The position numbers and the translations under genes are program-made. Shown piece after piece: positions 28,201-47,971 of a stretch of 64,000 bases of DNA. The stretch is taken from positions 1-64,000 of the forward strand of contig NZ_JAMXFC010000032.1 of the NCBI RefSeq assembly GCF_025370755.1, given 5' to 3'. The notes under the pieces are model-generated. The model was given only the letters and a program-made list of their open reading frames with translations, was not told the origin of the DNA and made no database searches. Within the stretch, counting starts at the first letter, position 1. Every line of letters begins with the position of its first letter. Source of the stretch: Laspinema sp. D2d (GTDB lineage Bacteria > Cyanobacteriota > Cyanobacteriia > Cyanobacteriales > Laspinemataceae).

Positions 28201-31200
28201 GATCGTATTCCCACTGGCAGTCGTCCCCGCTAACGGTTCAGTTCCTCCGACTGCCCCTAACCATTCCACATTCCCAGTCCCTGCCTGGAGGGTGAGTTGG
28301 TGAGGTCCGTTCACCGTTCGTTCAAAAGTGATGGTTCCCTCACCAGGACCTGTATTCAGGGTAACATCAGCAGCAAGGGTCACATTGCCATCGAAGACAA
28401 TATCAGTTCCATCGGTTTCGATTCCGGCAGCGAGTTCAATCTCATTGGCAAAGAAGGTGAAATCCGCACCCAGGTTACCCCGTAGCAGTCCTAACAAAGA
28501 AATAATGCCGTTGCCGCTTTGGAAGACAAAGGATTGGTTAGACAGGGTGAGAGGCGCAAGGGCAATGGTTCCGATACTATCAATCCGTCCGATGGTAATT
28601 TGGGCAAATCCCGGTTGAAAGAGATTCAGTTCGGCAAGGGAGAGATTTAGGGCATTAGTGCTAACTGTTCCCCCGATTTGAATATTGCGATCGCTAGAAG
28701 CGGGGGATAAAAATACTAACCCAGTCCCACTAATTGCCCCGCCAAACTCCATCTCATTGGCGGTTAGACTCAGATTACTGGTCCCGGCGTTGAGGGTATT
28801 ATTAAAAGACAGACTCCCTGTTCCTGCGGAGATTTCTGGGGTTCCGGTGAAGGTAACCGGGCTATTAAAACTGATATTCTGGTTAGCAGTAGTGAGATTA
28901 TTTCCTAAAATTACGGTTCCCGTTCCAGTTTGGGAAAAGAACCCGGCGAGATTCAGTAATCCAGCAAGGTTGAGGGTTCCGGTATTGTTAATCGCCAGGG
29001 TTCCCCCGTCTGTGGTGTTGACGGTATTCAGGGTGATAGTGCTGCCAGTGAGATTAATTCCTCCACTCCCGACGTTCAAATTAGCAGCATCCAGGATTCC
29101 CCCGGCGATCGTCAGTTGAGGTAAGGGGGAACTTCCCCCAACGGGTTCAGTTAATCGCACATCTCCGGTTCCTGCTGTCAGGGTTAGGGGAAACGTGCCC
29201 TCAACTGCCCCAGTGACGTTAATGGGACCATTCCCAATTCGGGTATCGAGGGTGACGGGAGATCCCACGGTAATCAGTGCATTGAGGGTGACCCCTTCCA
29301 CTCCCTGGGTGGTGACATTGCCGGTGAGTTGGGCAGGGTTGATACTGTCAACGCTGAGGGAGGAGACGGGGGTGGTAGTCCCGATCGCCGGGAGGGTGAC
29401 TGTCCCCTCTCCGGAAGTGAGAGTCAGGGGAAAATTCCCATTGACTTCACCTGTTAAGGCGATCGCTCCATTGCCGGTACTACTATTAATCGTGACGGGT
29501 CCGGTTAAGGTGATTCCTCCTGTTCCGGCGATCGCTACGCCATCAGGACCATTGGTGGTAATGGCATTCCCCAGGGTAACAATCCCCCCGGTATTCATTG
29601 TTAATGATGATAACGGCGTAATATTCCCCACGGCTTCAGATAAGGCAACCGTTCCATTCGTCGAAGTCACCGTCAAGGGTTGTGTGCCATCTACCCCCGC
29701 TAAGGTAATGCTGCCATTTCCCGATTGTATAGTAGTGGGAACGGTTAAGGATAAATTAGTACCAGAAATCGTCCCGTTTCCATCCACACGCCCAACTATC
29801 AAGGTAGTAAATCCCTGAAGGGCAGCTAAATCGGCGGCAGTAATATCTAATGTGTCCGCGCTGTTTTCTATGGCATTACCCAGGGCAATGGGGGTTGTCA
29901 GGGTAGCAGGTTGCAGGGTCACCACTCCGCTTCCGGTAACGGTTCCCCCAAAGGTGAGTTCATCCCCAGTTAAGGTGAGGTTCCCTAGGGTGAGTACATT
30001 ATCTCCATAGACTTGCCCCAGGGGTTCAGTCGTGGTGACATCGGCCCCGAGTTGGGTTGTTCCCCCCGCATTCGTTGTCACACTGGCAGCAGCGATCGCA
30101 CCGCCAAAGGTGGTAATTCCGGTACTATTCACAGTTAAATCCGCAAGGGGAGTGACCCCGCCAATGGCCCCGGTAACACTAATATCCCCAATTCCTGCAT
30201 CTAAGATGAGGGATTGATTCCCGTTCACCTGTCCTGTAAGGGTAATTGCCCCATTCCCTGAAGTGAGAGTAATGGGATTGAATCCCAAGATGGCATCTCC
30301 TTCCATAATGGGATTGGGACCCAAAGTGACATCTCCCTCAATGGCGATCGGTTGATTCACCGTAGTGAGGTCAGAATTGAGCGTGGTTGCACCCTGTAGC
30401 GTAATCGAAGCTGTACCCTCTGCCTCAATTGGACTATTCACCGTAATCGTACCATTGGGCGATCGCACTGTCAGAGGCGCATCAATCGGGTTGAGAAAAC
30501 TATCCAGAGTGACGGTCCCGCTTCCATCCACCCCTCCGATCATAATTGAATCAAAACCCGAATTCAAGTTTCCGAGTTGGAACTGAGTCAAGCTTAAAGT
30601 GCCCGGTACTTCCGCCTCGGCATTAATCGCAATATTGGTATTGGGGGTACTGGGTTGCAGCAGTAAAATTCCCCCGTTGTTACTCTGTCCCGACCCTTCT
30701 GGGGGTAACTCTATCTGATTCCCCGTGAGTTCAACATTCCCCCCACTGTTGGGTTCAGAACTCCTAGAATTTAATAAATTGCGGATAATTAAACTCGTCC
30801 CCGCATTTACCACCACATCCCCGCCTGTACCTGCGGTTCCATCCACAGATTCCGCATAGGATCTAATCGCATTGGTATCAACACTCCCATTCAGTGCCTC
30901 TACCAGAACCTCCCCCCCATTACCTGCCGTCCCCACCTCGTTCATATTTGTCGAAGAATCCAGCAACTGAACTGCTATATTTCCATTTATACTCCTAACG
31001 GTAATCGGCCCTCCACTCCCAGCCCCAGACTCTAGGGAGTCAGCATTGAACACGGAACTGGTATTGATTGTATTCATGTTAATATCCTCGGTGGCAGTTA
31101 CCGTAACCGCCCCCCCGTTACCCAGGAATCCGCTACCCTCTTGCAAATTCGTCCCGGAGTACAATGTGCCAGCAGTAATACTGCCGTTCGTGGCATTTAA

Positions 31201-32943
31201 AGTAATTGCACCCCCATCACTGGAACCGAAACCCAGTCCTGTATTAATATCCCCAACCACTATATTCGCGCCGGAAATGGATAAATGTCTCCCCCTTGCC
31301 GAGATAGTATTGGCGGTATTCATGGAAAAATCGCCTACCCCATTACCATCAGCATCTGCCACCAAGGAAATAGAACCCGTTCCCGCTTGAAACCTGAGTT
31401 CAGTTCCAAACCCTACCAACTCCTCAATTGTTATATTATTATTCGCCTCTAAAATCAGATTTGCTGTTCCTGGCAAATCTTGTAGTGCACCCCTAGAAAT
31501 TGTATAATTTGCGGTATCCCCATCCCCTGCAAAAATTTCTCCTTCCAGGTTTCCTAAGACGGGAATATCCGCGTCTAATTGATTATCATCAGGACCTGGT
31601 ACAAAAAATTCGCCCCCGGTTGCATCACTATTTTGAATAATAATATCTTCTGGATCAAGCAACAGCGTTCCCAAACTGCCATTAGGCGCACTTAGATCCA
31701 CGGTCCCCCGAAAAATCAGGTTTTGTTTCCCCGAAACTTCTACAAATCCGCCATTCTGCGGGTCATTTCCGGGTTGAATCCCTCCGCGCGCATTAATGAT
31801 ACCCCTGAATGTTGTGGTATCATCTGCCCAAATAATCACGCGGCCCCCATCTCCCTGGGATAGGGCATCGGCAGAAATAATCGAATCCCGACTCACAAAG
31901 GTATCTGACGCATTGGGAACGGGACCTTGACCCTGATATTCACCCCCCACCAAAACCGTACCGCCGCCATCCATGCCTGAAGCATCAATATTCGCCCCAA
32001 CCACCGCAACCCGTTCACCCAATACCTGGACTGTTCCCCCCGTTTCCCCTGTTACATCAATGTCACCGGAAGCCACAGCATCCCCTGATTGCACTGGAAC
32101 CCTGGAGTGAGACCCCGTGAGAGCGATCGTGCCATCGGGATTCACCTGCACCTGATTGGCATGACTCACCCCAGTCCCCGTTAAGAGTTCCGGTAAACTC
32201 AACGGTGTGAGTTGGGGAGTGAGGGGATTCTCAGGAGAGGGGCTAACTTCTAAACTCAGCAAATGATTCGATTGAGAAATCCGGACCCGACTCCCTCCCG
32301 CAACCGCTGCAACGGTAATATTTCCTCCCAGAGAAGAAAGAATACCCCCATTGAAAACCGTTCCTCCCAATAGGGTTAAATTCTGCCCCGGTGATAGAGT
32401 TAAATTGCCTAAATTAGCTACTACTCCCGGTTGAGAAATATCAAAGGCAAATTGATTAGGTGTTCCGACTAAATTCCCCCAATTGTTTTCTCCTAATGCC
32501 TGAAACCAATCATTTTCAAACCCAATTCCAGTAGCGGTGGTAGCGGTAAATGAAGCAGGGACATTTAAGGAGGCATTGGGACCGAATAAAATCCCTGCTG
32601 GGTTCATTAAAAATAGATTAGAATTGCCTCCGGTGATTTGAATGAGGCCATTAATAACCGAAGCCTCTCCCCCGGTGACTCGTCCCAGGATATTTTGAAT
32701 CTCTGGAGAGGATAAAAAATTGGCAATTTGACCTGGATTGAGGCCAAATTGCTCAAAACTATGAAATAAATTCTGGCGATCGCCCGACAGGGTTCCGCCG
32801 GTAATATTAAACTGATTTCCCTCGGGGTTAACCTGAGTATTTGTGCCATCAGCAGCCGGGGCGATGGGTTGTGCAAAACTGGCTGGTGCAGTCAACACGG
32901 ATGAGAGCACCAGTGCGATCGGCATCATGCTGAATTTGTTCAT
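25279..32943 (-). CDS. giant TPS haemagglutinin-like protein with C-terminal CHAT protease
   Basis: A 2554-residue protein. A signal peptide (MNKFSMMPIALVLSSVLTAPASFA) leads into a two-partner-secretion domain (residues ~30-270; FNITGGT, FLMNPAGILFG). A long beta-helical region rich in Gly, Thr, Asn and Leu follows (~270-1880). Then comes a Pro/Glu linker (EEPIEEVPPEELPP repeats) and a Ser/Thr/Pro/Ala stretch. The C-terminus (~2230-2554) is a CHAT protease with His2397 (HLATHGEF) and Cys2440 (LSACRTAVG). The N-terminal part would be secreted by a TpsB partner, not found here, so the protease would be displayed outside or in the periplasm. It heads a run of protease genes. Frames on the opposite strand are shadows of its biased composition. 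Confidence 0.93.
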   Translation of the reverse strand: MNKFSMMPIALVLSSVLTAPASFAQPIAPAADGTNTQVNPEGNQFNITGGTLSGDRQNLFHSFEQFGLNPGQIANFLSSPEIQNILGRVTGGEASVINGLIQITGGNSNLFLMNPAGILFGPNASLNVPASFTATTATGIGFENDWFQALGENNWGNLVGTPNQFAFDISQPGVVANLGNLTLSPGQNLTLLGGTVFNGGILSSLGGNITVAAVAGGSRVRISQSNHLLSLEVSPSPENPLTPQLTPLSLPELLTGTGVSHANQVQVNPDGTIALTGSHSRVPVQSGDAVASGDIDVTGETGGTVQVLGERVAVVGANIDASGMDGGGTVLVGGEYQGQGPVPNASDTFVSRDSIISADALSQGDGGRVIIWADDTTTFRGIINARGGIQPGNDPQNGGFVEVSGKQNLIFRGTVDLSAPNGSLGTLLLDPEDIIIQNSDATGGEFFVPGPDDNQLDADIPVLGNLEGEIFAGDGDTANYTISRGALQDLPGTANLILEANNNITIEELVGFGTELRFQAGTGSISLVADADGNGVGDFSMNTANTISARGRHLSISGANIVVGDINTGLGFGSSDGGAITLNATNGSITAGTLYSGTNLQEGSGFLGNGGAVTVTATEDINMNTINTSSVFNADSLESGAGSGGPITVRSINGNIAVQLLDSSTNMNEVGTAGNGGEVLVEALNGSVDTNAIRSYAESVDGTAGTGGDVVVNAGTSLIIRNLLNSRSSEPNSGGNVELTGNQIELPPEGSGQSNNGGILLLQPSTPNTNIAINAEAEVPGTLSLTQFQLGNLNSGFDSIMIGGVDGSGTVTLDSFLNPIDAPLTVRSPNGTITVNSPIEAEGTASITLQGATTLNSDLTTVNQPIAIEGDVTLGPNPIMEGDAILGFNPITLTSGNGAITLTGQVNGNQSLILDAGIGDISVTGAIGGVTPLADLTVNSTGITTFGGAIAAASVTTNAGGTTQLGADVTTTEPLGQVYGDNVLTLGNLTLTGDELTFGGTVTGSGVVTLQPATLTTPIALGNAIENSADTLDITAADLAALQGFTTLIVGRVDGNGTISGTNLSLTVPTTIQSGNGSITLAGVDGTQPLTVTSTNGTVALSEAVGNITPLSSLTMNTGGIVTLGNAITTNGPDGVAIAGTGGITLTGPVTINSSTGNGAIALTGEVNGNFPLTLTSGEGTVTLPAIGTTTPVSSLSVDSINPAQLTGNVTTQGVEGVTLNALITVGSPVTLDTRIGNGPINVTGAVEGTFPLTLTAGTGDVRLTEPVGGSSPLPQLTIAGGILDAANLNVGSGGINLTGSTITLNTVNTTDGGTLAINNTGTLNLAGLLNLAGFFSQTGTGTVILGNNLTTANQNISFNSPVTFTGTPEISAGTGSLSFNNTLNAGTSNLSLTANEMEFGGAISGTGLVFLSPASSDRNIQIGGTVSTNALNLSLAELNLFQPGFAQITIGRIDSIGTIALAPLTLSNQSFVFQSGNGIISLLGLLRGNLGADFTFFANEIELAAGIETDGTDIVFDGNVTLAADVTLNTGPGEGTITFERTVNGPHQLTLQAGTGNVEWLGAVGGTEPLAGTTASGNTILLSSGLRTLGDIILNGNLRLIDNTAIASQNGDIQFNGLVDSLTSPINLSLSAGGGITLNQAVGSQIPLAQLQVSDATSVTATAPITSNTVGISASQIQLDGDITTPGGNVTVTANNQLRVRNITTSGGAIQVINTTGDTNAGNLNSSNPNGIGGAIAIEAPNAATLAGDLISTGQTGGDIRVIARDRIQVGNIDSSGSINSGGNVFIDPENDTEVGYINAQGGNSGSGGDIFIQTGQFFRAMNTFRDRNGQTASISSAGGQGGGSISLNHGGGDLEIPLIIGDNSSNGTAGVITTGSETLTLGESFLGPVTRGNITVVTGEVIPPEEEEPIEELPPEEPIEEVPPEELPPEEPIEEVPPEELPPEEPIEEVPIEEVPIEEVPSEELPPEEPIEAVPPEELPPAEPILTPTIIPGNTDIQPLGSATEAPGEATSETPATGEPTLATVSPSETAAPVGVESTVAEDPNAVIAPTIAPPAIASPGETIPIAPEEIVPPAQDLEPTLNTPEPVLSVLAETPLQPLGESPVLLIQQGLSDTLRSVIERNASEGNQGPAIGIFRESIAQNIDTGMGAMEQVFSDSFSQHNGIPAGQIVSLTQAQTLMGNIEAETGVKPALIYVRFAPISLDSDRDQDQLEILIVTAEGQPIPKRIPNTSRAEIQKVANAFRGELTATGIRRKRYLQSAQQLYNWIIAPIEAELKAKNIKNLAFIMDSGLRSLPIAALHDGNQFLVETYSVGLMPSLSLTDTRYADIKSREVLAMGASEFTELNPLPAVPLEVETITTKLRKGQSFINELFTLEILKRERNAHQYSIVHLATHGEFQSGQLSNSYIQLWDRKLKMDEIRELGFNDPPLELLVLSACRTAVGDEQAELGFAGLAVQAGAKTALASLWYVSDEGTFGLMTEFYHHLSQAPIKAEALRQTQLAMIQGQVRVEDGILYTANQQIPLPEAIAHLSQSDLTHPYYWSAFTLIGSPW

Positions 32944-33297: not shown

Positions 33298-35505
33298 TCA
33301 AACTACCTGAAAAGTAATCGATAAAGCCGCCATTTCTTCTGCTTGGGCAATGCGAGAACGCGGGTCAAATGACGCCGTAATATTGCGAGTTTGGCTTAAA
33401 TCAGTCCATAAACTTTCCACCGCCGAAACCGATTCCTCTTCCAACCCTAAAACTCCCTCCCGCGTCCCCCGCGCTGCGGCAATTTGTTGTAACTGTTGTA
33501 GGGAAGTTCGCAAGGGAGATAAACTCGCGATCGCCAACATTTCAGCCGTGCCCAAGGGCGGTGAAATTGTCAACTTAAACGGATCGCGATCGCCATCAGG
33601 AATCAACCGGGTTTCCCCTGCCTTCACCAACGCTGCATCAATGCCAGCAGTCCAACTATTCGGAAAAACCACCACCAATTCCCCCGTCGTTGTAATCACT
33701 AACAAAGTCACATATAAATCCCTATTTTCCCCATTCCTTACCTCACACTGTACCTCCACCCCAACCGGAACCGCTGGAATCCCCCCTCCCAAGTTCGGTG
33801 TCACGACTTCAGTGGTTCTCCCAGTTCCCCCGCGCGCCGTAAACGCACTCGCTGAAAACTGCGCCTGAGACCCCTGCAACACCTTCAACCCCATTGATAC
33901 ATTCAACCGAGAGGATTCCGCATTCAAAGTGAGTTTAACCAGTCGCGCCGCCAACAATGCGCGAAACTTACTTTTCAGGCGATCGCACCCCGCAACCACC
34001 GACTCTCCCACCTTCCCAAACGAACCCGGAATCAAATCCAAACCCGCACCATATAACCCCAAACTCCCTACTGCCGGAACCTCCCCCACCCCGGATTCCC
34101 GGACCTCCTGATGTAGCGCCTCCGTCATCCGTCCCAAAATATAATGCACCTGCGTTTCCCCTAACGGCAATGCTTCCATCCGTTCCACCGCAGCAACTGC
34201 CTGTTTTGCTGCCTCCCACTCTCCCCCCAACGACTCATCCAACCCAATCCGCAACGTGAGATTTTCCGGAATCGCCCGCGCCTGTTCCTGCAACAGCGCA
34301 CCGGGTTGCAATCCTGCCGAAGGTGCGACTGCCTTCCCCTGCGCTACCAACCCTTGCCGTGACTCAATTTGCACCAATCCCCCCGCATCTCCATCCGTCG
34401 CCAGCGCAAACACCGCATTGCTATTAAACGCCGTCAACGACTGCGGGTCAATCCCCCCTAACCACAATTGCAGGCGATCGCCATTCACTGCCGTAATCAC
34501 CGCCTCTGCCGGATTGGACTGTACCGGCAGGAAATAAGTCGGTTTCGATTCATTCCCGCTTCCCGGTTTAACCTCCATCTCCGGAACTTGCTGAGTCGAA
34601 GAAATGCGTGTCGTAGTGCGTGCGACATTCCCTAACACCGTCTGCACCACGTGACTCCCCGTTTGCTGCCATAGATACTGAGTGAGAGCATAAGTAAACG
34701 CCCCGGCAAAAAATCCCTCAAACGGTGTATCTGCCGCCAACTGCGTCGCTGCTGCCGAAGCAATCACCACCCCTTTTGCTACTCCCTTTTGCCGGTCCTC
34801 CATAAACTTTTCTTCTGAAATTCCCAACTTAGACACCCACTGCTGATGATATTCCCGTTCCTCCAAACTGGGATAATCCCCGCCAGGAATTGCCCGAATC
34901 GTCAAATTCCCCCGCTTGCCACCCCCCGAGTGACAACTATCTAAAACTACCGTAATATTTTCCGTATTAATTGCTGACATCCACAGGAACAAACTCGCCC
35001 CCATAATATCAGAAACCATCGCCTGTCCTTCCTGAATTTCCGCAGTGCGATCGCTCGGAACAAACGTACTATTCAACCGTTCCCGAGGATTCCCCAACGG
35101 ATTATAAGGATTAACCACCTGTGCGCCATGTCCCGAAAAATGAAACACTACCACATCACCCGGTTTTGCCTGAGCAATTAAATGAGATTCCACCGCCTCA
35201 ATCAACCCCGCCCGAGTCGGTTTAATTGCTGTATCATCGGTCACCATCAAAATATCCTGGGGATTAAATCCAAACCGATGAATCAACAACTCTCGCTGTA
35301 ACTCAACATCCGTAATACATCCCCGTAACGGACTAACCTTAGCCTGAGAATAATCATTAATTCCTATTAATAACGCCAACTTACGCGGTGTATCCTGAGC
35401 CAAAACCCGAGCATACCGTAACCCTTGCCGCTGAATCTCGAATTGACTCCACCCTAAAGCCGCTAAAGCCGCCCCTGCACCCTGAACAAAATAACGCCGT
35501 TTCAT
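33298..35505 (-). CDS. caspase-like protease (orthocaspase) with C-terminal DUF4384-like region
   Basis: A 735-residue C14-family protease. A Tat-like N-terminus (KRRYFVQGAGAALAALGW) suggests export. The caspase domain spans residues ~40-290: LALLIGINDYSQAKVSPLRGC, catalytic His126 in FHFSGHGAQ, and catalytic Cys191 in VVLDSCHSGGG, both intact. The C-terminal half (~350-735) has no firm domain, but VTLLVITTTGELVVVFPNS near 605-625 is typical of the DUF4384 region found in other bacterial caspases. It cleaves after Arg/Lys in known members. It lies between the two CHAT genes, on the same strand as the giant one. Confidence 0.93.
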   Translation of the reverse strand: MKRRYFVQGAGAALAALGWSQFEIQRQGLRYARVLAQDTPRKLALLIGINDYSQAKVSPLRGCITDVELQRELLIHRFGFNPQDILMVTDDTAIKPTRAGLIEAVESHLIAQAKPGDVVVFHFSGHGAQVVNPYNPLGNPRERLNSTFVPSDRTAEIQEGQAMVSDIMGASLFLWMSAINTENITVVLDSCHSGGGKRGNLTIRAIPGGDYPSLEEREYHQQWVSKLGISEEKFMEDRQKGVAKGVVIASAAATQLAADTPFEGFFAGAFTYALTQYLWQQTGSHVVQTVLGNVARTTTRISSTQQVPEMEVKPGSGNESKPTYFLPVQSNPAEAVITAVNGDRLQLWLGGIDPQSLTAFNSNAVFALATDGDAGGLVQIESRQGLVAQGKAVAPSAGLQPGALLQEQARAIPENLTLRIGLDESLGGEWEAAKQAVAAVERMEALPLGETQVHYILGRMTEALHQEVRESGVGEVPAVGSLGLYGAGLDLIPGSFGKVGESVVAGCDRLKSKFRALLAARLVKLTLNAESSRLNVSMGLKVLQGSQAQFSASAFTARGGTGRTTEVVTPNLGGGIPAVPVGVEVQCEVRNGENRDLYVTLLVITTTGELVVVFPNSWTAGIDAALVKAGETRLIPDGDRDPFKLTISPPLGTAEMLAIASLSPLRTSLQQLQQIAAARGTREGVLGLEEESVSAVESLWTDLSQTRNITASFDPRSRIAQAEEMAALSITFQVV

Positions 35506-36125: not shown

Positions 36126-39100
36126 ATGGTGCATCACGGGTTATTACTACTATCTCATTCAGCATTGACTATAGCCACAACTCTGCTACTCGGCGCAAGT
36201 GTTGTCCCGCCAAGTTCAGCCCAGGACATGGAAAAATTATCCGAATTAACCAGAATTGGAGAGAGTTTGATTGCCCAGAATAGTAGCAGTGCAGAGGGGA
36301 GTGCAGAGGGCGATCGGTTGTTCCAAGAAGGAGTCCAACTGTTTCAACAAGGGACAGCCGAATCGTTGCGTCAAGCCTTGCAAAAGTGGGAAGCAGCACG
36401 CCCACTCTATCAAGATGCAGGCGATGCCGCAAAGGAAGCAGCCACATTGTTAGGAATAGGCCGAATTTCCGACTTACTGGGAGAGAAGCAAACGGCCCTA
36501 GACTACTACAACCAATCCTTGCCCCTGTCTCAGCAAGTGGGGGATCAAGCAGGGGAAGCGGTTACCCTCAACAATATTGGCCTGGTTTACTCCGACTTGG
36601 GAGAGAAGCAAACGGCCCTAGACTACTACAACCAATCTTTGCCCCTATGGAGGCAAGTGGGGAATAAAGTAGGGGAAGCGACAACCCTCAACAATATTGG
36701 CCTGGTTTACTCCGAGTTGGGGGACAAGCAAACGGCCCTGGACTACTATAACCAATCTTTGCCCCTGAGACGGCAAGTGGGGGACCTAGCAGGGGAAGCG
36801 GTTACCCTTAACAATATTGGCCTGGTTTACTCCGAGTTGGGAGACAAGCAAACGGCCTTGGACTACTACAAACAATCCTTGCCCCTATTGCGGCAAGTTG
36901 GAGATAAAGCAGGGGAAGCAGTTACCCTCAACAATATTGGCCTGGTTTACTCCGACTTGGGAGACAAGCAAACCGCCCTGGACTACTACAACCAATCCTT
37001 GCCCCTATTGCGGCAAGTTGGAGATAAAGCAGGGGAAGCGGTTACCCTCACCAATATTGGCCTGGTTTACTCCGACTTGGGAGACAAGCAAACCGCCCTG
37101 GACTACTACAACCAATCCTTGCCCCTGTCTCGGCAAGTCGGGGATAAGGCAGTCGAAGCGGTTACCCTCTCCAGTATTGGCCTGGTTTACTCCGAGTTGG
37201 GAGACAAGCAAACCGCCCTAGACTACTACAACCAATCCTTGCTCCTGTCTCGGCAGGTGGGGGATAAAGCACAGGAAGCGGTTACCCTCTCCAGTATTGG
37301 CCTGGTTTACTCCGAGTTGGGAGACAAGCAAACATCCCTAGACTACTACAACCAATCTTTGCCCCTGTCTCGGCAGGTGGGGGATCAAGCAGGGGAAGCG
37401 GTTACCCTCAACAATATTGGCCTGGTTTACTCCGAGTTGGGAGACAAGCAAACCGCCCTGGACTACATCAACCAATCTTTGCCCCTGAGACGACAAGTGG
37501 GGGATAAAGCAGGGGAAGCGACAACTCTCTCCAATATTGGCCGGGTTTACGCCGACCTGGGAGACAAGCAAACAGCCCTGGATTACTACAACCAATCTTT
37601 GCCCCTGAGACGGCAAGTGGGGGATAAAGCAGGGGAAGCGATTACCCTCTCCAATCTTGCTTTCACCAAGCGCAGTCAAGGCAACCTCACCGAAGCGCTG
37701 ACGGACATGGGAGCGGCTATTAGTATTATCGAAGAACTCCGCACCAAAATCGACAGCGAAAAACTGCGCCAGTCTTACTTTGCTCAAAACCAAAATGCCT
37801 ACGAGTTCTACATCGACCTGCTGATGGAACTGCACCAGCAAAATCCTGAGCAAGGATATGACAAACAAGCCTTTAATACCAGCGAACGCGCCCGCGCTCG
37901 CACGTTGTTGGAAATTCTCGCTGAAGCCAATGCTGATATCCGCAATGGGATTGACCCTGAACTGCGGGAGAAGGAACTCAATTTACAGCAGCGCATCAAT
38001 GCCACGGAATCTCGTCGCATGGAGTTACTTTCTGGAGAACATACCCCGGAACAAGCCAATACCATTCAACAAGAGCTGGATACTTTGTTACGGCAACTGG
38101 ATGAATTAAGGGCGGAAATTCGGCGCACTAGCCCCCGTTATGCAGCCCTGACTCAACCTCAACCCCTGACTTCTGAACAAATTCAGCAGCAGGTTCTTGA
38201 TAAGGATACTTTGCTCTTACAATATTCCCTGGGCGAAGACCGTAGTTTCCTGTGGGCAGTAACTCCAGACAGTGTAGAGGTTTATGAACTCCCTCCGCGT
38301 GCTGAAATTGAGGAACTAGGAGAACAATTTTATCAACTAATGCAAAACCCTGAGTATCGGGGTGAGAGTCGCAATATTACCGTGTCTCCTAACCTTCCTC
38401 AAATCAATGCCTCTGCTACCGAACTGAGTCAGATGTTGTTGTCTCCCGTGGCGGATAAATTAGCTGGGAAACGGTTGTTAGTGGTTCCCGATGGGGTGTT
38501 GAATTTCATCCCTTTTGCTGCCTTACCGACGCCGGGACAAGGGGAGGAGTTAACGCCGTTATTGGTGAATCATGAAATTATCAATCTACCTTCCTCCTCG
38601 ACTTTGGCGATTCTGCGCCAACAAGGTGAGGGACGAAGTATTGCACCGAAAACCGTGGTGTTGATTGCAGACCCGGTGTTTGAACCGGATGATAGACGGG
38701 TTACGGGACAAAGTGCGGTGAAGGCATCAGATTTAGGTCGAATTATGGTGAATCGTTCGGCGGAGACAATTATCGGGCGTCCGATTCCGGCACTGCCTGG
38801 GACTCGTGAGGAAGCGGAGGCGATTTTGGCGTTAGTGCCTGGGGGTAGGGCAATGTCGGTATTTGATTTTGATGCCTCTCGCGCTACGGTGGCGAATACA
38901 GATTTAACTCAGTATCAAATGGTGCATTTTGCTACTCACGGGTTTGTGAGTAGCAGTAATCCGGAGTTGTCCGGCGTTGTGTTATCTCTCGTGGATGAGC
39001 AAGGGAATGGAGTAGATGGGTTTTTGCGCCTGCATGACATTTTTAATCTCCAGTTGAATGCTCAGGTGGTGGTGCTTTCCGCTTGTCAAACGGGACTGGG

Positions 39101-39362
39101 AGACTCGATTCGCGGTGAGGGGTTGGTGGGGTTGACGCGGGGGTTTATGTATGCTGGAACGCCTCGGTTGGTGGTGTCGTTATGGAGTGTGGATGACAAG
39201 GCAACGGCGGCGCTGATGTCGAAGTTTTATGGGAAGCTGCTTTCACAAGGGGTGACTCCGGCGCAAGCGTTGCGGGAGGCACAGTTGGAGATGTTGGCAA
39301 GTGAGGAATGGAAGTCTCCCTATTTTTGGGCGGCGTTTACTTTACAGGGAGAATGGCGATGA
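36126..39362 (+). CDS. TPR-CHAT protease with ten near-identical TPR repeats
   Basis: A 1078-residue protein. A signal-like N-terminus (HSALTIATTLLLGASVVPPSSAQ) is followed by a short helical segment, then ten tetratricopeptide repeats of exactly 40 residues (residues 119-518) built on GDKQTALDYYNQSLPL-RQVGDKAGEA-TL-NIGLVYS-L. A helical linker (~520-700) follows, then a CHAT domain (~720-1078) with His938 (HFATHGFV) and Cys987 (LSACQTGLG). The TPR solenoid should sense a partner and the CHAT protease should act on cleavage targets. The export signal, if used, places it outside the cytoplasm. The repeats are almost identical at the DNA level, which means recent duplication or gene conversion. 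Confidence 0.95.
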   Translation: MVHHGLLLLSHSALTIATTLLLGASVVPPSSAQDMEKLSELTRIGESLIAQNSSSAEGSAEGDRLFQEGVQLFQQGTAESLRQALQKWEAARPLYQDAGDAAKEAATLLGIGRISDLLGEKQTALDYYNQSLPLSQQVGDQAGEAVTLNNIGLVYSDLGEKQTALDYYNQSLPLWRQVGNKVGEATTLNNIGLVYSELGDKQTALDYYNQSLPLRRQVGDLAGEAVTLNNIGLVYSELGDKQTALDYYKQSLPLLRQVGDKAGEAVTLNNIGLVYSDLGDKQTALDYYNQSLPLLRQVGDKAGEAVTLTNIGLVYSDLGDKQTALDYYNQSLPLSRQVGDKAVEAVTLSSIGLVYSELGDKQTALDYYNQSLLLSRQVGDKAQEAVTLSSIGLVYSELGDKQTSLDYYNQSLPLSRQVGDQAGEAVTLNNIGLVYSELGDKQTALDYINQSLPLRRQVGDKAGEATTLSNIGRVYADLGDKQTALDYYNQSLPLRRQVGDKAGEAITLSNLAFTKRSQGNLTEALTDMGAAISIIEELRTKIDSEKLRQSYFAQNQNAYEFYIDLLMELHQQNPEQGYDKQAFNTSERARARTLLEILAEANADIRNGIDPELREKELNLQQRINATESRRMELLSGEHTPEQANTIQQELDTLLRQLDELRAEIRRTSPRYAALTQPQPLTSEQIQQQVLDKDTLLLQYSLGEDRSFLWAVTPDSVEVYELPPRAEIEELGEQFYQLMQNPEYRGESRNITVSPNLPQINASATELSQMLLSPVADKLAGKRLLVVPDGVLNFIPFAALPTPGQGEELTPLLVNHEIINLPSSSTLAILRQQGEGRSIAPKTVVLIADPVFEPDDRRVTGQSAVKASDLGRIMVNRSAETIIGRPIPALPGTREEAEAILALVPGGRAMSVFDFDASRATVANTDLTQYQMVHFATHGFVSSSNPELSGVVLSLVDEQGNGVDGFLRLHDIFNLQLNAQVVVLSACQTGLGDSIRGEGLVGLTRGFMYAGTPRLVVSLWSVDDKATAALMSKFYGKLLSQGVTPAQALREAQLEMLASEEWKSPYFWAAFTLQGEWR
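36480..37679 (+). repeat. ten tandem 120 bp repeats
   Basis: Ten units of 120 bases, in frame with the TPR-CHAT gene, each beginning with a GGAGA(or C)AAGCAAAC-type start. Most differ by a few bases. They are in-gene minisatellites able to change copy number. Confidence 0.95.
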
Positions 39363-39464: not shown

Positions 39465-39851
39465 ATGAGTGCAACCAAAGACAACGAAGAGTTTTTTCCC
39501 GATGATAATCCCAGCAAAGGAGAGTTGTTTATTGAGGTCCCCAGTAATAGTCCCCCACCTTATATTGAAGGGGTTCCCAATGCTTTTGACCCGATGGAAG
39601 AAATTCAGGCGAGGGGGATCGCTTATCGAGGGTTAGCTGGAGGAAATGTTCCTGGAATCACTCTGATTATTAGTTGGATAATGTTTGGGGTAGCTCCCCT
39701 CATCGCTCTAATCCTGATGATTGTTTTTGGCGACTATTCATTTCTACCTTTTGTTTTAGTTTCTAGTCTAATGATGGGGATTTTAATACGGGGTACTCAG
39801 GCAAAGTTGGCTAAACGAAGAGCTTTAAAGAAAAAAATAAAAAAAAGATAA
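39465..39851 (+). CDS. small membrane protein next to TPR-CHAT
   Basis: A 128-residue protein. The N-terminal 60 residues are acidic and Pro-rich (PDDNPSKGELF, NSPPPYIEGV), then two membrane helices (ITLIISWIMFGVAPLIALIL and FLPFVLVSSLMMGILI), then a very basic tail (KLAKRRALKKKIKKR). The charge pattern suggests an anchored protein with both ends inside. I do not recognise a family. It follows TPR-CHAT by 102 bases on the same strand and has a good ribosome-binding site (AGGAGGG), so it may belong to that transcription unit. Confidence 0.65.
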   Translation: MSATKDNEEFFPDDNPSKGELFIEVPSNSPPPYIEGVPNAFDPMEEIQARGIAYRGLAGGNVPGITLIISWIMFGVAPLIALILMIVFGDYSFLPFVLVSSLMMGILIRGTQAKLAKRRALKKKIKKR

Positions 39852-39946: not shown

Positions 39947-42900
39947 TTAGGTCATCCAAAGGCGGCGCAAGACGGAGACGGGAATGGCATAAAACGATCG
40001 CTCACTGTAGGCGTCTCCGTTGGGTCCTTGCCGTTTTTGTTCTAAGATAAAACTGAGCAACCCAATGACTTCTCCCCATTGGTTTAATAAGGGGGAACCA
40101 CTAATTCCACCCTGGAGGGGAATGCTCACTTCTAAGACGCGATCGCTGCATATCGACTGCGGGCGAATCCGGTTGATTAATCCCACGTTACAGTAGAGAT
40201 TGTCTTCAAATCTTCCCTCGTAAACAGCAGGAAATCCTAGAGTTAAAACTCGTTCCCCTACTTCCACCAATTCAGAAAAACCCAATCGCAAGGGGGTCCG
40301 GGAAACTGAGGTGGGTTTTAAGTGCAAAATAGCGACATCATCCGGTCCCCAATGGGGTAATTGGATGGAAGCAACTTGAAGCATTCCCTGTTGAGTCATT
40401 ACCTGAATGGTGTGGGGTAAAACACATTCTCCCGTTGCTTCATTGAATACTACATGACGGTTGGTTGCTATACGATCGCCTCCGATGAAAAACCCACTCC
40501 CATTCCCCGTATATCCCGGGGAATTGACCTGAATCCAGGCTACAGAAGCCGCATAAATTTGTACAGAATGGTTGAGATTGGTAAAGTCTGGACTGTGAAT
40601 TTTTAGGGGTTGCGCTTGTGCTTGAAGTAAAGCCTGGTAATCTTGCCGTTGTCGCGATCGCGCATAAATTTCTAGTCCCAATTCTACCTGATTGAGAGAC
40701 AGGGGAAGCTCAATTTGCTGAAAATACTCTATCGCCTCAGCGTAGCGGTGCAGACTGAGAAAATATTGTGCCAATTCTTCTGCCTTGCCATCGGAATTGA
40801 CGGTCAAATTTTCAATCGCACTCACCCATTTAAGATAGGTTCCCACCACTTCTGTTAATTCCGTTACCGCTTCCCGAATTCGCTGAAGTAAACTCGACCC
40901 TTCTTGGAACATCAGCTTAACGCGATCGCTGATTTGAATTCCTTTCCAATCTAAGGACTGATACCCCTGAATCCAACTTTGACAACTCCGTTTTAAGGTA
41001 TCCCAGCGATCCTGTGCTAACCGTTCTTTCATCTCTAATTCAGGGTGATCGCGATACAGTTCTAACAACATTTGATTATCTGTTTCCGTTAACTGATATC
41101 GGTCCCGATAATTTTCATAAAACTGCAACCGTTCCCGTAATCGGATGGCTAAATCACCGAGTTCCATCTTGTCAACGGTCGCAAACTGTGTCATTATTTC
41201 TGCGGAAATTTTTTGTAAATGCCCCAATTGTTCTTGATAAGTTTTTGCTTCATAAAAGCGAGTTTGGAGGGAGGTTTGTTGAGCCGGAGTCAATAAATGA
41301 GAATCAGCAATGGTAATGCTACATTGATTTCCCGTCCCCAAATCCAACGCCGATACTTTCAAGAGACAATTGGTGTCAATGTCAAAACTGACCTCAATTT
41401 TTGGGACTCCCGCTTTGGCGGGGAAGATTCCTTCTAAGATAAATTGTCCGATTTTGAAATTTTCCTCGGGAATCGGCGATTCGCCTTGAAACACTTCAAT
41501 TTTAACCCGGGTTTGATTATCTTCAATCGTGGTGTAATTATGAGTCTTGTGGGTGGGAATCGTCGTATGTTTAGGAATCAAAACATCAAATTTAAACTCA
41601 GTGGGAGATACAGAAGACTTAATCCCGAGACTGAACGGCACTACATCTAGTAAAACGGTTTCCTGAAGTGCTCCTAATAGAATCGCTGCTTGTAAAACTG
41701 CACCCCTGGCTACGGCAGTTAACGGATCTAAATCTGCATTCGGTTTTCGTCCAAAAACTTCACGAATGCACTGCCGTACCGCAGGCATAACGGCACCTCC
41801 ACCAATCAACAGAATTCGATGGGGTTTATGAGTAATTTTCTGACAAGTTTTGCGAATCTGATTCAGCCAGGGGGCCGCCAGTTGTTCCAGTTCCTGGCGG
41901 GTGAGTTTTAAATCAAGGGTCGTACCTTTAATAAATTGGGGAAGCTGAATCGTCCAAGCCTTGCGGGTGGAAAGTTCGATTTTTAACTCTTCGCAAGCCT
42001 GACGAAGCCGGGTAGCAGCAAGGCGATCGCTGGCAATTTCATACCCCGTTTCCCGTTCAATTTTAGTCATAAAATGGCGGTACAAAATCTCGTCTAAATC
42101 CGCACTGCCTAGGGAATTATCCCCTTGAATTTCTAAGACTTCAAAAACTTTGTCTTCCACCTCAATGATAGAAATATCAAAGGTTCCCGCCCCCAAATCA
42201 GCAATTAACAGGGTTTCATTGTGAGGCACTCGATGATTCTGAGCCAAACAAGCGGCAGTGGGTTCATGAATGAGTCGTAAAACATTCATATCAGCCAGCA
42301 TTCCCGCTGTTTTAGTGGCTTGTTTTTGCGCATCATTAAAGTAAGCGGGAACCGTAATCACTGCATTGCTTATAGGAATAGCGAGGGGATAACGATCCAG
42401 ATAAGCGATTACCCATTCTTCCGGTGGGACAGTTCCCATTGCTTGCGCCGCCAAGTGAGAAACTTGTTGGACAATTTTTTGGCGGAGGCGATCGCGGGCT
42501 AATTGCCTCGCACAATTAATAATTCGGGCCGAAATTTCTTCGGGACGGTACACCACTCCCCCCGCCTTAAATTTCGTCTCTGTTCCCATTTTTCGCTTCG
42601 CCTGGGTGACAATGGCGCGGGGGGATTGACCCAGTAACTCAGGGATGGGAACCCCAACCAGTTCTCGCCCCATCTGGTCGATCGCAAACACGGAAGGAAT
42701 TTGTTGTTTGCCCTGCCATTCCACAACTTCCACTTCGGCTGTGCGTTTATTATACAAACAAACCACACTGTTACTGGTGCCGAGATCCAACCCGATTGCA
42801 TCAATGTAGTCCCCTAACACCGCTTCCGTGGCAGCTTGCACCCATCGCGGCGCTTGTTGTTCAAACTTGCGTCGATCCAAGGCTTCAATCTGCGGCAGTT

Positions 42901-44662
42901 CCCTCGCCACTAAAGTGAGCAAGCGATCGCTCACTAAGCCGCGATCGCCCAGTTCCTTGATGCGTCGAAATAACAGGGCTTTTTCTTCCGGCGATCGCTC
43001 GGGTTCGTAAGCATTTGCGGCATACAGTTCCGCCAGTTCCTCAATCCGTCCCGCTTTTGTGAGTAATTCAATGAAGCGCTCATCAAAAACGACCTGGCGA
43101 TCTCCCACCTGTTGCCGTCGCAATACAGCCGCCCGTTCAAATTCTTTTGCCTGTTCATACATTGCGATCGCGCGATCGGTTTCCCCTAACTCTTCATACA
43201 GCAATCCCGCCATAAAAAAATCCCCCCCTTGTTCCAGTAATTGGGCTTTTTTCTGGGGGATACTCTCAGTTGTCTCACAATCCGCCGAATCCAGGGCGGA
43301 TAAGGCTTGCCCGAAGGCTCCGGCTTTTTCAAAGAGCAAAGATGCGCTAAAATAATCTTGGGCTTGCTGCGCTTTGACTGCCGCCTCTTGATAATTTTCT
43401 GCCGCTTCTTCCAACCGACTCCACGCTTTGAGGAGTTCAGTCTCTCTCACTCCTTGAGCCTCAGTTAACTGGATTTCCAACCCAGCGCGAGCCGTTTTGA
43501 GGACTTTCCCCAATAAATGTTGAGTGCGATCGGCTTCGGACTGGACTTGGGAGCCTGCGGAATGCTTCCGCCATGATGTTTCCAAGGCTTTTAAGAGGCG
43601 CACTGCGGGCAAAAATTCGTCCTGATCCAAGTGCGATCGCACGGTTCTTTCCATGCTGTCTCGGACTTGTGCGATCCACTCAGGATTTAAGGTAGGACGG
43701 AGTTGCACTGCCTCGGGTAAGTTCCCGAGTTGGTAATGACAATCACTCGCCCGTTCCAAGTCTCCCGCTTTTTGAAAATGCTCCAACGCCGTTGTATAAT
43801 CCCCTTCGTCCCAAAAACAGGAGGCGACTTTTTGATGTGCTTGGGCGATCGCCTCAGAGGATTGAATCCGTTCAGATAAGCTTAAAACCTGGAGTGCATT
43901 TTCTTTCCCTCCCATCTCCATGCGGTAAGCGATCGCACAACGATAATCTTTCACCGCTTCCGCTAAATTCGCCGCCTCTTCCCAGCGCTCAATCAACCCA
44001 TAAACCGGATGGAGGCGAGGCAGTTCCCTCGGGGTTAATTGCAAGAAAAAGGCTTTCCAGGGTACATTTCCTTGAAAGGAATTAGAAACTAACAAGGGGT
44101 TCAGAATCGCTTCAAGCTCTCCGGAGTCCAAACGCCCTGCTTGCCGACGTTGTACCAACTTCCTCAGTAGTTCATTCTCTTCACCCATTCGGGCGATTTC
44201 CACACAAATAAACTGTTGAATTTCCTGACGAAATGACGCGTCTTGTACTCGTGCCGATAGCCGCCAAGCCGCATTTAATGCCTGCACCGTTACCGGGTCT
44301 CTTGTCAGCAAAAATTTTAGTGATCGCTTGGCGGAAAATGTCCCCGTTGGCAGTAATGTTCCCAGGCGGGGTTCAAATTCATGAATTACTTGAATTAGGT
44401 GAGAGCCATTCCCGCTAGTATAGCGATTCACTCTATCACATTTTGCTGCGCGGTCCAAAACTTGGGCATAGGTTTTCCAAATCTTTTCCCGATCTGAATA
44501 ACTCGGATGTTCCAAAGCTAATAATTGCTCTAAACTTTTGCAACTCCGGCGTAATTGTGACGACGGATTGCCCCCGGCTTTGAGTCTCTCCAACAGATGG
44601 GAAAAAAATCTGAGCAGCTTGTTGAAAAATGGCCGCAACGGGTTGGGTGAATTTAATTTCAT
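39947..44662 (-). CDS. TPR-Hsp70-trypsin fusion protein
   Basis: A 1571-residue cytoplasmic-looking protein. Residues 1-600 are helical TPR-like repeats (ALEHFQKAGDLERAS, AIAMYEQAKEFERAA). Residues ~622-1010 are a full Hsp70 ATPase: IGLDLGTSNSVVCLYN with Asp626, LIHEPTAACLAQ, LIADLGAGTFDISII and RILLIGGGAVMPAV. A substrate-binding domain follows (~1020-1180), then helices. The C-terminus (~1370-1571) is a trypsin-like protease with His1403 (ATNRHVVF), Asp1442 (PDDVAIL) and Ser1521 (GGISGSP), an intact triad. No signal peptide is seen. The fusion implies a chaperone that selects a client and presents it to a built-in protease. Confidence 0.93.
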   Translation of the reverse strand: MKLNSPNPLRPFFNKLLRFFSHLLERLKAGGNPSSQLRRSCKSLEQLLALEHPSYSDREKIWKTYAQVLDRAAKCDRVNRYTSGNGSHLIQVIHEFEPRLGTLLPTGTFSAKRSLKFLLTRDPVTVQALNAAWRLSARVQDASFRQEIQQFICVEIARMGEENELLRKLVQRRQAGRLDSGELEAILNPLLVSNSFQGNVPWKAFFLQLTPRELPRLHPVYGLIERWEEAANLAEAVKDYRCAIAYRMEMGGKENALQVLSLSERIQSSEAIAQAHQKVASCFWDEGDYTTALEHFQKAGDLERASDCHYQLGNLPEAVQLRPTLNPEWIAQVRDSMERTVRSHLDQDEFLPAVRLLKALETSWRKHSAGSQVQSEADRTQHLLGKVLKTARAGLEIQLTEAQGVRETELLKAWSRLEEAAENYQEAAVKAQQAQDYFSASLLFEKAGAFGQALSALDSADCETTESIPQKKAQLLEQGGDFFMAGLLYEELGETDRAIAMYEQAKEFERAAVLRRQQVGDRQVVFDERFIELLTKAGRIEELAELYAANAYEPERSPEEKALLFRRIKELGDRGLVSDRLLTLVARELPQIEALDRRKFEQQAPRWVQAATEAVLGDYIDAIGLDLGTSNSVVCLYNKRTAEVEVVEWQGKQQIPSVFAIDQMGRELVGVPIPELLGQSPRAIVTQAKRKMGTETKFKAGGVVYRPEEISARIINCARQLARDRLRQKIVQQVSHLAAQAMGTVPPEEWVIAYLDRYPLAIPISNAVITVPAYFNDAQKQATKTAGMLADMNVLRLIHEPTAACLAQNHRVPHNETLLIADLGAGTFDISIIEVEDKVFEVLEIQGDNSLGSADLDEILYRHFMTKIERETGYEIASDRLAATRLRQACEELKIELSTRKAWTIQLPQFIKGTTLDLKLTRQELEQLAAPWLNQIRKTCQKITHKPHRILLIGGGAVMPAVRQCIREVFGRKPNADLDPLTAVARGAVLQAAILLGALQETVLLDVVPFSLGIKSSVSPTEFKFDVLIPKHTTIPTHKTHNYTTIEDNQTRVKIEVFQGESPIPEENFKIGQFILEGIFPAKAGVPKIEVSFDIDTNCLLKVSALDLGTGNQCSITIADSHLLTPAQQTSLQTRFYEAKTYQEQLGHLQKISAEIMTQFATVDKMELGDLAIRLRERLQFYENYRDRYQLTETDNQMLLELYRDHPELEMKERLAQDRWDTLKRSCQSWIQGYQSLDWKGIQISDRVKLMFQEGSSLLQRIREAVTELTEVVGTYLKWVSAIENLTVNSDGKAEELAQYFLSLHRYAEAIEYFQQIELPLSLNQVELGLEIYARSRQRQDYQALLQAQAQPLKIHSPDFTNLNHSVQIYAASVAWIQVNSPGYTGNGSGFFIGGDRIATNRHVVFNEATGECVLPHTIQVMTQQGMLQVASIQLPHWGPDDVAILHLKPTSVSRTPLRLGFSELVEVGERVLTLGFPAVYEGRFEDNLYCNVGLINRIRPQSICSDRVLEVSIPLQGGISGSPLLNQWGEVIGLLSFILEQKRQGPNGDAYSERSFYAIPVSVLRRLWMT

Positions 44663-44716: not shown

Positions 44717-44751
44717 ATAAAAAATCCCTTATTCTATAAGAATAAGGGATT
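44717..44751 (-). terminator. strong terminator after the rhomboid gene
   Basis: On the minus strand AATCCCTTATTCT-TAT-AGAATAAGGGATT, a perfect 13-base stem, followed by TTTTAT. It separates the rhomboid gene from the Hsp70-trypsin gene. Confidence 0.9.
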
Positions 44752-46429: not shown

Positions 46430-47971
46430 ATGTTTGTGTCTTCTCTTAGACAGGCAATCAATCCCCAACCCATCACCACCACGGCGGATACCACTGTAGA
46501 AGCCGTAATCGCCCTAATGAGTCGGGCCAGAACCAGTGGTGTCCTTATCCTAGACCCTCAGCGAGGAAACGGGACTCAACAGGATCAGTTAATCGGGATT
46601 TTTACAGAACGGGATGTGGTCAGAATGATTGCAGCCTCTCAAGACATTAAAGGGGTGGCGATCGGCGAAGTCATGACCAAAAAAGTCCTCACCCTAACCG
46701 AATCCTTAACCGACGATCAAGATATCGTCACCGTCCTGACCCTATTTCGTCAACATCGCATTCGTCATCTTCCCGTATTTGATGCCAATGGAACCCTCCT
46801 CGGTATCCTCACCCAACAGGGGATCCGTACCGTCCTCAAACCCATTGATTTCATGCGTCTGCGGCGAGTTGATGAAGTGATGACCACTCGGGTGATTCAT
46901 GCCCCAGTCTCCACCACAGTCCTCAATATTGCCAAACTGATGGCAATCTATAACGTGAGTTGCGTTGTGATCGCTCAAGTTCATCACCAGAGTTTAACGC
47001 CCCTCGATTCAACTTGGGGGGTTTGGTCCGCAGATAGCTGTCAAATCAAACCCGTCCGGCCAATGGGGATCATCACCGAACGGGATATGTTACAGTTTTG
47101 CAATCTTGAACTGGACCTAGAGCGGCTCAAAGCCTCCACGGTGATGAGTGCACCGTTATTTCCCATTGCACCGGATGCCTCCTTGTGGGAAGCCCATCAG
47201 CAGATGCAACGGCGGCGGGTTCATCGCTTAGTCGTGGTGGGGAATGAGGGGGAACTCGGGGGAATTATCACCCAAACCAGTTTGTTGCAAGCCTTAGACC
47301 CGATGGAAATGTATGCCGAGATTGAGGTCTTGCAGGAATTATTGCAACAATCGGAATCAGAACGAGAAGCCCTACTCAAGCAACTGATCGCTCGGAATAA
47401 ATTACTGGAATCCCTGGCCCTCACCGATGAATTGACCGGGTTACCTAACCGCAGGGCGATGGAACAGGCCCTACCTCAGATGCTGCCCCATTCTGCGGCT
47501 CAGGAGAAGTCTGTTTATAGTGACTATATCTGCTTGTTTGCGATTGATGTGGATTTTTTTAAACGGGTGAATGATACTTATGGTCATCCCACCGGCGATG
47601 GCGTGCTTAAAGAAATTGCGGGGCGGTTGCAAAGACAGGCCCGAGCGAATAGTTGGTTTTATCGCTATGGGGGGGAGGAGTTTATTTGTCTCACCGTGGG
47701 GATTGGACCGGAAACCGCCTGGGAATATGGGGAAGACTTGCGAGAGGCGATCGCCCAGGAACCGTTCATCACCGCTGAGGGGGTCGAAATTCCCTTGACC
47801 ATTAGCATTGGCGGGGCGATCGCCCCACTGTCGGGGATCACCGCTGAAGGGATCAAAATCGGACAAGACCCCCAGGCGTTATTGGCAGTTGCCGATCGCG
47901 CCTTATATCAAGCCAAACGAGAGGGCCGCAATCGGGTACAGTTCTGTCCCTATTCGGAAATTCACTGCTAA
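46430..47971 (+). CDS. four-CBS-domain diguanylate cyclase
   Basis: A 513-residue cytoplasmic protein. Four CBS domains occupy residues ~2-292 (for example FTERDVVRMIA, TERDMLQFC, VMTKKVLTL), then a coiled coil (~293-330), then a GGDEF domain with DELTGLPNRR, DVDFFKRVNDTYGH and GGEEF at 414-418. The active-site signature is intact, so it should make cyclic di-GMP from two GTP. The inhibitory RxxD site is R405-A-N-S408, with Ser in place of Asp, so product inhibition may be lost. The CBS domains probably bind adenine nucleotides. It ends 36 bases from the convergent psbV2. Confidence 0.93.
   Translation: MFVSSLRQAINPQPITTTADTTVEAVIALMSRARTSGVLILDPQRGNGTQQDQLIGIFTERDVVRMIAASQDIKGVAIGEVMTKKVLTLTESLTDDQDIVTVLTLFRQHRIRHLPVFDANGTLLGILTQQGIRTVLKPIDFMRLRRVDEVMTTRVIHAPVSTTVLNIAKLMAIYNVSCVVIAQVHHQSLTPLDSTWGVWSADSCQIKPVRPMGIITERDMLQFCNLELDLERLKASTVMSAPLFPIAPDASLWEAHQQMQRRRVHRLVVVGNEGELGGIITQTSLLQALDPMEMYAEIEVLQELLQQSESEREALLKQLIARNKLLESLALTDELTGLPNRRAMEQALPQMLPHSAAQEKSVYSDYICLFAIDVDFFKRVNDTYGHPTGDGVLKEIAGRLQRQARANSWFYRYGGEEFICLTVGIGPETAWEYGEDLREAIAQEPFITAEGVEIPLTISIGGAIAPLSGITAEGIKIGQDPQALLAVADRALYQAKREGRNRVQFCPYSEIHC

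Follow-up and report, generated by a model that had tools for sequence, protein, structure and literature searches.

A conserved single-chain fusion of an alpha-solenoid, an Hsp70 and a trypsin-like protease domain in cyanobacteria

The window, by which we mean the whole 64,000-nucleotide stretch of Laspinema sp. D2d DNA analysed here, carries a reverse-strand reading frame (39947-44662) that is open throughout and encodes a protein of 1571 aa with the order solenoid/TPR, Hsp70, Trypsin_2. An initial annotation had proposed that a TPR solenoid, an Hsp70 ATPase and a trypsin-type protease are joined here in one polypeptide. The fusion is real: the protein matches the Pfam HSP70 model and the full length of Trypsin_2, and the same combination occurs in 12 distinct genomes, including that of the window. 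His1403, Asp1442 and Ser1521, which had been named as the protease triad, are the residues found at exactly those positions. Judged by its residues, the fused protein of the window genome has complete ATPase and protease sites. The features of the locus are as follows:

39947-44662, reverse strand: whole gene, TPR/alpha-solenoid, Hsp70, helical arm and Trypsin_2 in that order; 1571 aa, 12 distinct full-length members
44576-44629, reverse strand: N-terminal cationic amphipathic helix, aa 12-29, candidate membrane anchor (hydrophobic moment 0.70)
42806-44566, reverse strand: alpha-solenoid with TPR-like repeats, about aa 33-619 (Pfam, AlphaFold2 model and PDB matches)
41663-42799, reverse strand: Hsp70 nucleotide-binding domain, aa 622-1000, catalytic residues intact (Pfam and site alignment)
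41288-41662, reverse strand: Hsp70 interdomain linker and SBDbeta, aa 1001-1125, pocket kept, equivalents of R445 and R467 lost (site alignment)
40511-41287, reverse strand: helical arm, aa 1126-1384, standing where the SBDalpha lid would be; its four long helices are followed by short ones (predicted model)
39950-40510, reverse strand: Trypsin_2 serine protease domain, aa 1385-1571 (Pfam)
40454-40456, reverse strand: codon of catalytic His1403 (sequence)
40337-40339, reverse strand: codon of catalytic Asp1442 (sequence)
40100-40102, reverse strand: codon of catalytic Ser1521 (sequence)
44723-44751, reverse strand: terminator-like hairpin with a T run and a 13-pair stem, between a rhomboid gene and the fusion gene (hairpin scan)

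The same domain order, which the initial annotation had suggested looking for in other genomes, was found there, giving a family of 12 distinct full-length collinear members that are 45-93% identical to one another and 49-88% identical to the window protein. They comprise five Laspinema-type proteins (the window, L043, L044, G400 and G402), G190, G245 (Anabaena sp. FACHB-1237), three Geitlerinema-type proteins (G022, G184 and G395, which is P-1104), one protein from a Crocosphaera MAG (L046) and one from a contig binned as Candidatus Obscuribacter (L048); four duplicate loci were dropped (L045 = G245, L047 = G395, L043 = G401 and L044 = G406). Every member is one uninterrupted frame from the N-terminus to the protease, with no stops inside, which rules out a frameshift or a chance joining of adjacent genes; the existence of 12 distinct members rules out an error in one genome alone. 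Ten are 1550-1571 aa long, and the remaining two (1592 and 1609 aa), whose mechanical start lies upstream of the aligned start, are 1573 aa each when trimmed to it.

The fusion is rare. A profile of the N-terminal solenoid matched 5 of 388 genomes of the class and 4 of 292 genomes of the phylum, the latter sample overlapping the former, and at E 1e-10 or better all matches lay inside the fusion. The fusion is present in 3 of 14 genomes of the family of G022, in 1 of 42 of the family of G190, and in 5 of 14 of the window's own family, all five from one genus of which 8 genomes were searched. When the C-terminal 429 aa were compared with 291 class genomes, 155 gave some match; among the matches listed, the whole query was covered at five places, including the window's own, and the others involved the protease part. 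A scan of genome contigs yielded 108 relatives; of the best 80 of these 108, six (L043-L048) match nearly end to end and 74 match the protease part alone. In an Hsp70 search of 116 genomes, two fusions scored 1030 and 970 bits and the next matches 390 bits and below, so that among the matches listed, from which weaker fusions could escape, we found no Hsp70 intermediates or other TPR-Hsp70-effector fusions between 970 and 390 bits. We detected no plasmid-borne copy among eight matching records, none of which covered >80% of the query. L048, a MAG contig of 5.8 kb, consists of little more than its full fusion gene, which shares 45-50% identity with the other members; the genome record of L048 gave no match to a cyanobacterial DnaK2 at E 1e-200. 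The identity of its organism is uncertain and a binning error is possible; we therefore see in it no basis for a spread beyond photosynthetic cyanobacteria.

The N-terminal TPR solenoid of the initial annotation was likewise borne out. Within the first 620 residues the Pfam TPR matches are weak: TPR_8 exceeds its cut-off (26.3 bits versus 25.7) and the other TPR models fall below theirs. AlphaFold2 predicts aa 1-640 to be entirely helical; over aa 231-590 the 10-residue mean pLDDT is 88-97, except for two blocks with 66 and 81. Many TPR superhelices are among the PDB matches of this model, with low TM-scores. Ahead of the solenoid, the segment aa 12-29 has a hydrophobic moment that ranks first of 1554 in the protein; the model has a pLDDT of 38-55 there. 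Once the upstream extensions that the mechanical start gives G400 and G402 are removed, 11 of the 12 members have their highest hydrophobic moment (0.69-0.80) in an 18-residue segment among the first 40 positions, with a net charge of +3 to +7, although the letters of this segment are poorly conserved; the exception is L048, where it ranks 60. This recurrent cationic amphipathic character suggests peripheral membrane attachment. The protein, earlier described as intracellular, may be better placed on the cytoplasmic side of a membrane. According to excerpts of PMC7281324, membranes also co-purify with DnaK3 in Synechococcus and Synechocystis.

The Pfam HSP70 model (PF00012) matches aa 622-1141 (E 3.6e-114; 382.6 bits versus a gathering threshold of 20.6). 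The match spans positions 1-519 of the 599 in the profile, corresponding to the nucleotide-binding domain and SBDbeta, and leaves the helical lid end unmatched. The Hsp70 part of the window protein shares 35-36% identity with three DnaKs encoded in the same genome, and 36% with L001, which we take to be the DnaK2-type protein of that genome. Equivalents of the E. coli DnaK residues D8, K70, E171, T199 and D201 are kept in all 12 members, as are those of P143, R167 and D393, which serve the interdomain relay and J-protein contacts. Also kept throughout are the pocket equivalents V436, I438, I472 and I401, with that of D431 kept in 11 of 12. Five positions are fixed differently: in 12/12 members, R151 is replaced by Lys, N170 by His, F426 by Tyr, R445 by Ser or Asp, and R467 by Ala, all of them canonical in the 17 DnaK comparison rows (16 distinct genes, L002 and L184 being one gene). 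R445 in DnaK presumably faces the lid. At the arch position A429, 11 members have Ile, Val or Thr and one has Ala; position 404 is variable, in a region where the alignment is uncertain because of an insertion. In DnaK, the latch between lid and SBDbeta involves D431-H544 and R467-D540, and the arch is made up of M404 and A429 (excerpts of PMC8215388); DnaK variants R151A and D393A are described as lacking substantial refolding (excerpts of PMC4595643). With the lid unmatched and the equivalents of R445 and R467 lost in every member, clients are unlikely to be captured as in ordinary DnaK.

In Hsp70s, the lid rests against the ATPase domain when ATP is bound and shuts over the peptide in the ADP state. 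Lid closure is also described in excerpts of PMC8215388. In the window protein, the corresponding region (aa 1126-1384) has no Pfam match above cut-off, and the predicted model places helices of 41, 17, 43 and 41 residues after SBDbeta. Across these four helices the pLDDT is 49-84, and around aa 1286-1375 it is 32-44. Averaged over the whole of aa 616-1571, the model has a pLDDT of 62.5, with values below 40 from about aa 1456 on; its Hsp70 part matches DnaK structures and its protease half is poorly modelled. Because of this low confidence, we did not take the geometry of the arm from the predicted structure. As far as sequence can tell, an arm of about 260 aa ending in a serine protease sits at the place of the lid, and the lid itself is unrecognisable.

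The protease domain is matched by Trypsin_2 at aa 1388-1535 over the full profile (positions 1-144 of 144; E 3.9e-17; 63.8 bits versus 27.6). Its best solved relatives are a S. aureus serine protease (2as9, E 3.3e-9), SplA and chloroplast Deg5. The initial annotation had described all active sites as intact, which is correct for the window protein and for all five Laspinema members, but not for the family: His, Asp and Ser are all present in 9/12 members, and the three Geitlerinema-type members (L041, L042 and L047 loci) have Arg, Tyr and Arg in place of the catalytic His. In G022, Gly also replaces Ser. In the Crocosphaera member, Glu stands two residues ahead of Ser, at what we take to be the oxyanion-hole Gly. 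Since three of 12 members lack His and a fourth carries Glu where the oxyanion Gly is presumed, not every member can have cutting as its function, and the protease does not look active across the family. The Geitlerinema-type members form a pseudoprotease branch, in which His, and in one case Ser, has been lost and the protease domain is otherwise conserved.

Selective constraint was estimated as dN/dS (NG86) in five regions for eight pairs, and was at most 0.31 in every region. The solenoid has the highest value of the five regions in six of eight pairs (0.17-0.31). The protease domain has values of 0.08-0.17 in five Laspinema pairs and 0.16-0.20 in three Geitlerinema-type pairs; thus, although the triad is lost in some members, dN/dS stays well below 1. 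The ratio of protease to ATPase dN/dS is 0.85, 1.12, 1.25 and 1.75 in the Laspinema pairs that include the window, and 2.00, 1.68 and 1.78 in the Geitlerinema-type pairs. The direction is that expected of relaxed constraint on the protease in the Geitlerinema-type members; however, the intervals of the two groups overlap in 100 bootstrap replicates, making the contrast only suggestive, and one intact Laspinema pair also reaches 1.75, so we do not adopt relaxation.

These data bear on whether the protein is a chaperone or holdase first, with the Hsp70 and solenoid doing the conserved work and the protease being an accessory that serves as a peptide-binding or structural lid and is catalytic in some lineages. 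The loss of His in all three Geitlerinema-type members, of Ser in one, and of the presumed oxyanion Gly in Crocosphaera fits such a protein, as does the protease frame that stays open and constrained in the Geitlerinema-type branch, alongside Hsp70 catalytic residues kept in every member. The retention of the full triad in nine members speaks against it, as does protease constraint near that of the ATPase domain in three of four Laspinema pairs, to the extent that so suggestive a contrast can. We consider this explanation somewhat unlikely, and give it the weight it has because the His-less branch indicates that cutting is not indispensable.

In a FastTree phylogeny of Hsp70 domains, the 12 fusions form a single clade with a support of 1.000, separated from the DnaK rows by a long branch (1.14). 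The fusion Hsp70 thus appears, on this tree, to be one deep lineage separate from the DnaKs compared, and its point of attachment may reflect long-branch attraction. Identity between fusions correlates with identity between DnaK2 proteins (r 0.98; 6 genomes, of which 3 are congeners), although the two trees differ, and the G+C content of the fusion gene resembles that of its locus, a value that includes the gene itself. Recent horizontal transfer is therefore unsupported, and old vertical descent with many losses explains the tracking of DnaK2 identity as well as transfer does. Separately, we noted, in the 116 genomes of the Hsp70 search, several DnaK-like genes in open frames of ~820-990 codons (e.g. 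G109:C32:91540-93042 and G034:C122:11104-12600); the usual DnaK frame has ~640 codons.

Neighbouring genes vary. A rhomboid gene adjoins the fusion gene in the window, and a methyltransferase gene lies upstream in L044, L137 and L138, the three loci scanned there among the four other Laspinema loci. Together with the hairpin between the rhomboid and fusion genes, which argues against one operon, this leaves an operon with the rhomboid gene unsupported; the hairpin scan overall gave 7 sites against a shuffle mean of 7.9, and hence no excess. Elsewhere the adjoining genes encode DUF3038 and DUF4335 proteins (G190), CobW (FACHB-1237), S-adenosylhomocysteinase (Crocosphaera MAG) or, in the Geitlerinema-type genomes, an AcrB-family protein, a phosphatase-like protein and a 269-aa ORF judged by eye to be a putative molybdate-binding protein. 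The wider scanned neighbours include an ABC ATPase, amino-acid permeases, ArsA, an ArgZ-like protein, an AAA-vWA protein, an S13 carboxypeptidase and others. Among the ORFs scanned at each locus, no neighbour is common to different genera. A CBS-repeat protein with a GGDEF domain is encoded at 46430-47971 (forward strand) of the window, and a like protein upstream of the fusion gene in L043. A small Rce1-like protein, matched below threshold, is encoded convergently with the fusion gene in the window (39465-39851, forward strand) and in L137 (10448-10846, reverse strand). At 25279-32943 (reverse strand) the window encodes a protein of 2554 aa whose N-terminal domain is of the two-partner-secretion (TPS) type and whose C-terminal domain is a CHAT protease, apparently an exported CHAT protein and a seemingly unusual pairing.

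Beside the fusion gene, the window encodes a TPR-CHAT protein (36126-39362, forward strand) and a caspase-domain protein with DUF4384 (33298-35505, reverse strand), and both kinds also lie near it in L044. The TPR-CHAT gene is found 0.6-1.1 kb downstream in the window, L044, L137 and L138, all four Laspinema loci readable there (L043 ends), with the caspase gene further downstream in the window and L044 among the ORFs scanned. Such neighbours would suit a signal-gated effector protease of a defence or cell-death network, with the solenoid as sensor, the Hsp70 as threshold switch and the protease as the part that cleaves proteins of host or invader, as in the NTPase-plus-trypsin conflict systems of Kaur et al. 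NTPase chaperones with trypsin-like effectors, and GTPase systems including HSP70, are described in excerpts of PMC7159879 and PMC8195603, the protease resembles PADLOC RT-Protease_XI (E 9.2e-15), and the distribution of the fusion is patchy. However, the Pfam matches of the protein include no effector-associated or death-like domain, and the neighbours scanned include no MoxR-vWA pair, GTPase-tubulin set or adaptor gene; the AAA-plus-vWA protein, about 5 kb from the fusion gene in one genome, is one that we take to resemble the magnesium-chelatase subunit ChlD. Outside Laspinema the scanned neighbours are mostly metabolic, transport or unknown genes, and the effector does not vary, the same protease being present in 12/12 members. 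We regard an effector role as quite unlikely.

Our leading explanation, held tentatively and at somewhat less than an even chance, is a self-contained, probably membrane-peripheral, client-directed protease: an Hsp70 in which a protease arm takes the place of the lid and cuts the clients that are captured. The N-terminal helix would rest on the cytoplasmic face of the membrane and the solenoid would recruit clients or partners. A J-protein would stimulate the Hsp70 ATPase, leading to capture of an extended client segment in SBDbeta. The arm in the lid's place would then follow the nucleotide state as a lid would, and its swing would carry the serine protease over the bound segment; instead of being released for refolding, that segment would be cut. 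The Geitlerinema-type branch would be the same machine without cutting, acting as a holdase or trap. ATP-driven client recognition feeding the protease, as the initial annotation had it, is plausible, and we infer the coupling of motor to protease.

In favour of a client-directed protease are the single-chain order, uninterrupted in 12/12 members, and the three of four Laspinema pairs in which protease constraint is near that of the ATPase domain. The retained ATPase, relay and pocket residues, the lost lid-side arginines, the unmatched lid followed by long helices, the N-terminal helix of 11 members and the restriction of solenoid-profile matches to the fusion also speak for it. Against it stand the members with a damaged protease site and the low-confidence model, which lends the arm geometry no structural support. 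In addition, bystander proteins would have no inherent protection from a lone trypsin-fold domain that lacks a chamber, the neighbours scanned gave no match to a J-protein or GrpE, and the fixed R151 to Lys and N170 to His replacements could weaken allostery or J-protein contact. If the Hsp70 and protease were instead independent and merely tethered to keep both at one membrane site, the membrane association of cyanobacterial DnaK3 (excerpts of PMC7281324) and the absence of domain-domain contact in the low-confidence predicted structure would be accounted for. Nonetheless, collinearity at nearly constant length in all 12 members and the fixed lid-side losses argue that geometry matters, and we consider mere tethering very improbable.

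Whether an Hsp70 cycle can drive proteolysis becomes directly testable on such a conserved single chain, as does the purpose of the lid, which is replaced here; thanks to the naturally His-less members, the cutting form of one machine can be compared with a non-cutting form. Were the motor truly to drive the cutter, the protein would be an ATP-driven protease of an unfamiliar kind. The broadest interpretation is that of an ATP-dependent protease built on an Hsp70 motor rather than an AAA+ ring, and of a further bacterial Hsp70 type in which the lid has become a protease arm and the nucleotide cycle delivers an active site to a client at the membrane, with a pseudoprotease side branch that would then be a natural cutting-dead control. 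We rate this as doubtful.

As a rule, Hsp70s work together with proteases that are separate proteins, and they release their clients. We recognised no published Hsp70-protease single chain in the parts of the open-licence PubMed Central literature covered. The fusion shares with DnaK (PF00012, TIGR02350) the nucleotide-binding domain, linker and SBDbeta, with catalytic, relay and pocket residues kept. Unlike DnaK, it scores far below the equivalog cut-offs (391.5 bits versus 822.55; 405.9 versus 648), has no lid match, carries the five fixed replacements described above, lies on a separate deep branch, and has a solenoid before and a protease after the Hsp70. Three prokaryotic Hsp70 types, DnaK, HscA and HscC, are distinguished in excerpts of PMC8215388, which give HscA an altered arch, fewer latch contacts and Met at the V436 pocket position. 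The fusion, in contrast, keeps the V436 pocket and scores 322.9 bits against an HscA cut-off of 708.55; no HscC model is among the 18 NCBIfam matches listed for the window protein. With HtrA/Deg and staphylococcal Spl-type proteases it shares the trypsin fold with His, Asp and Ser; unlike HtrA/Deg, it scores 19-27 bits against cut-offs of 416-470, has no PDZ match and is joined to an ATPase. AAA+ proteases (Clp, Lon and FtsH) also join an ATPase and a peptidase in function, whereas the fusion has an Hsp70 fold and one trypsin-like domain, with no sign of a ring or chamber. Finally, conflict systems, including those of multicellular cyanobacteria, combine a chaperone NTPase with a trypsin-like peptidase (excerpts of PMC7159879, PMC8195603 and PMC10907252); their NTPase, as described there, is MoxR-vWA, a GTPase or STAND with adaptor domains, whereas none of these was found in the fusion or among its scanned neighbours.
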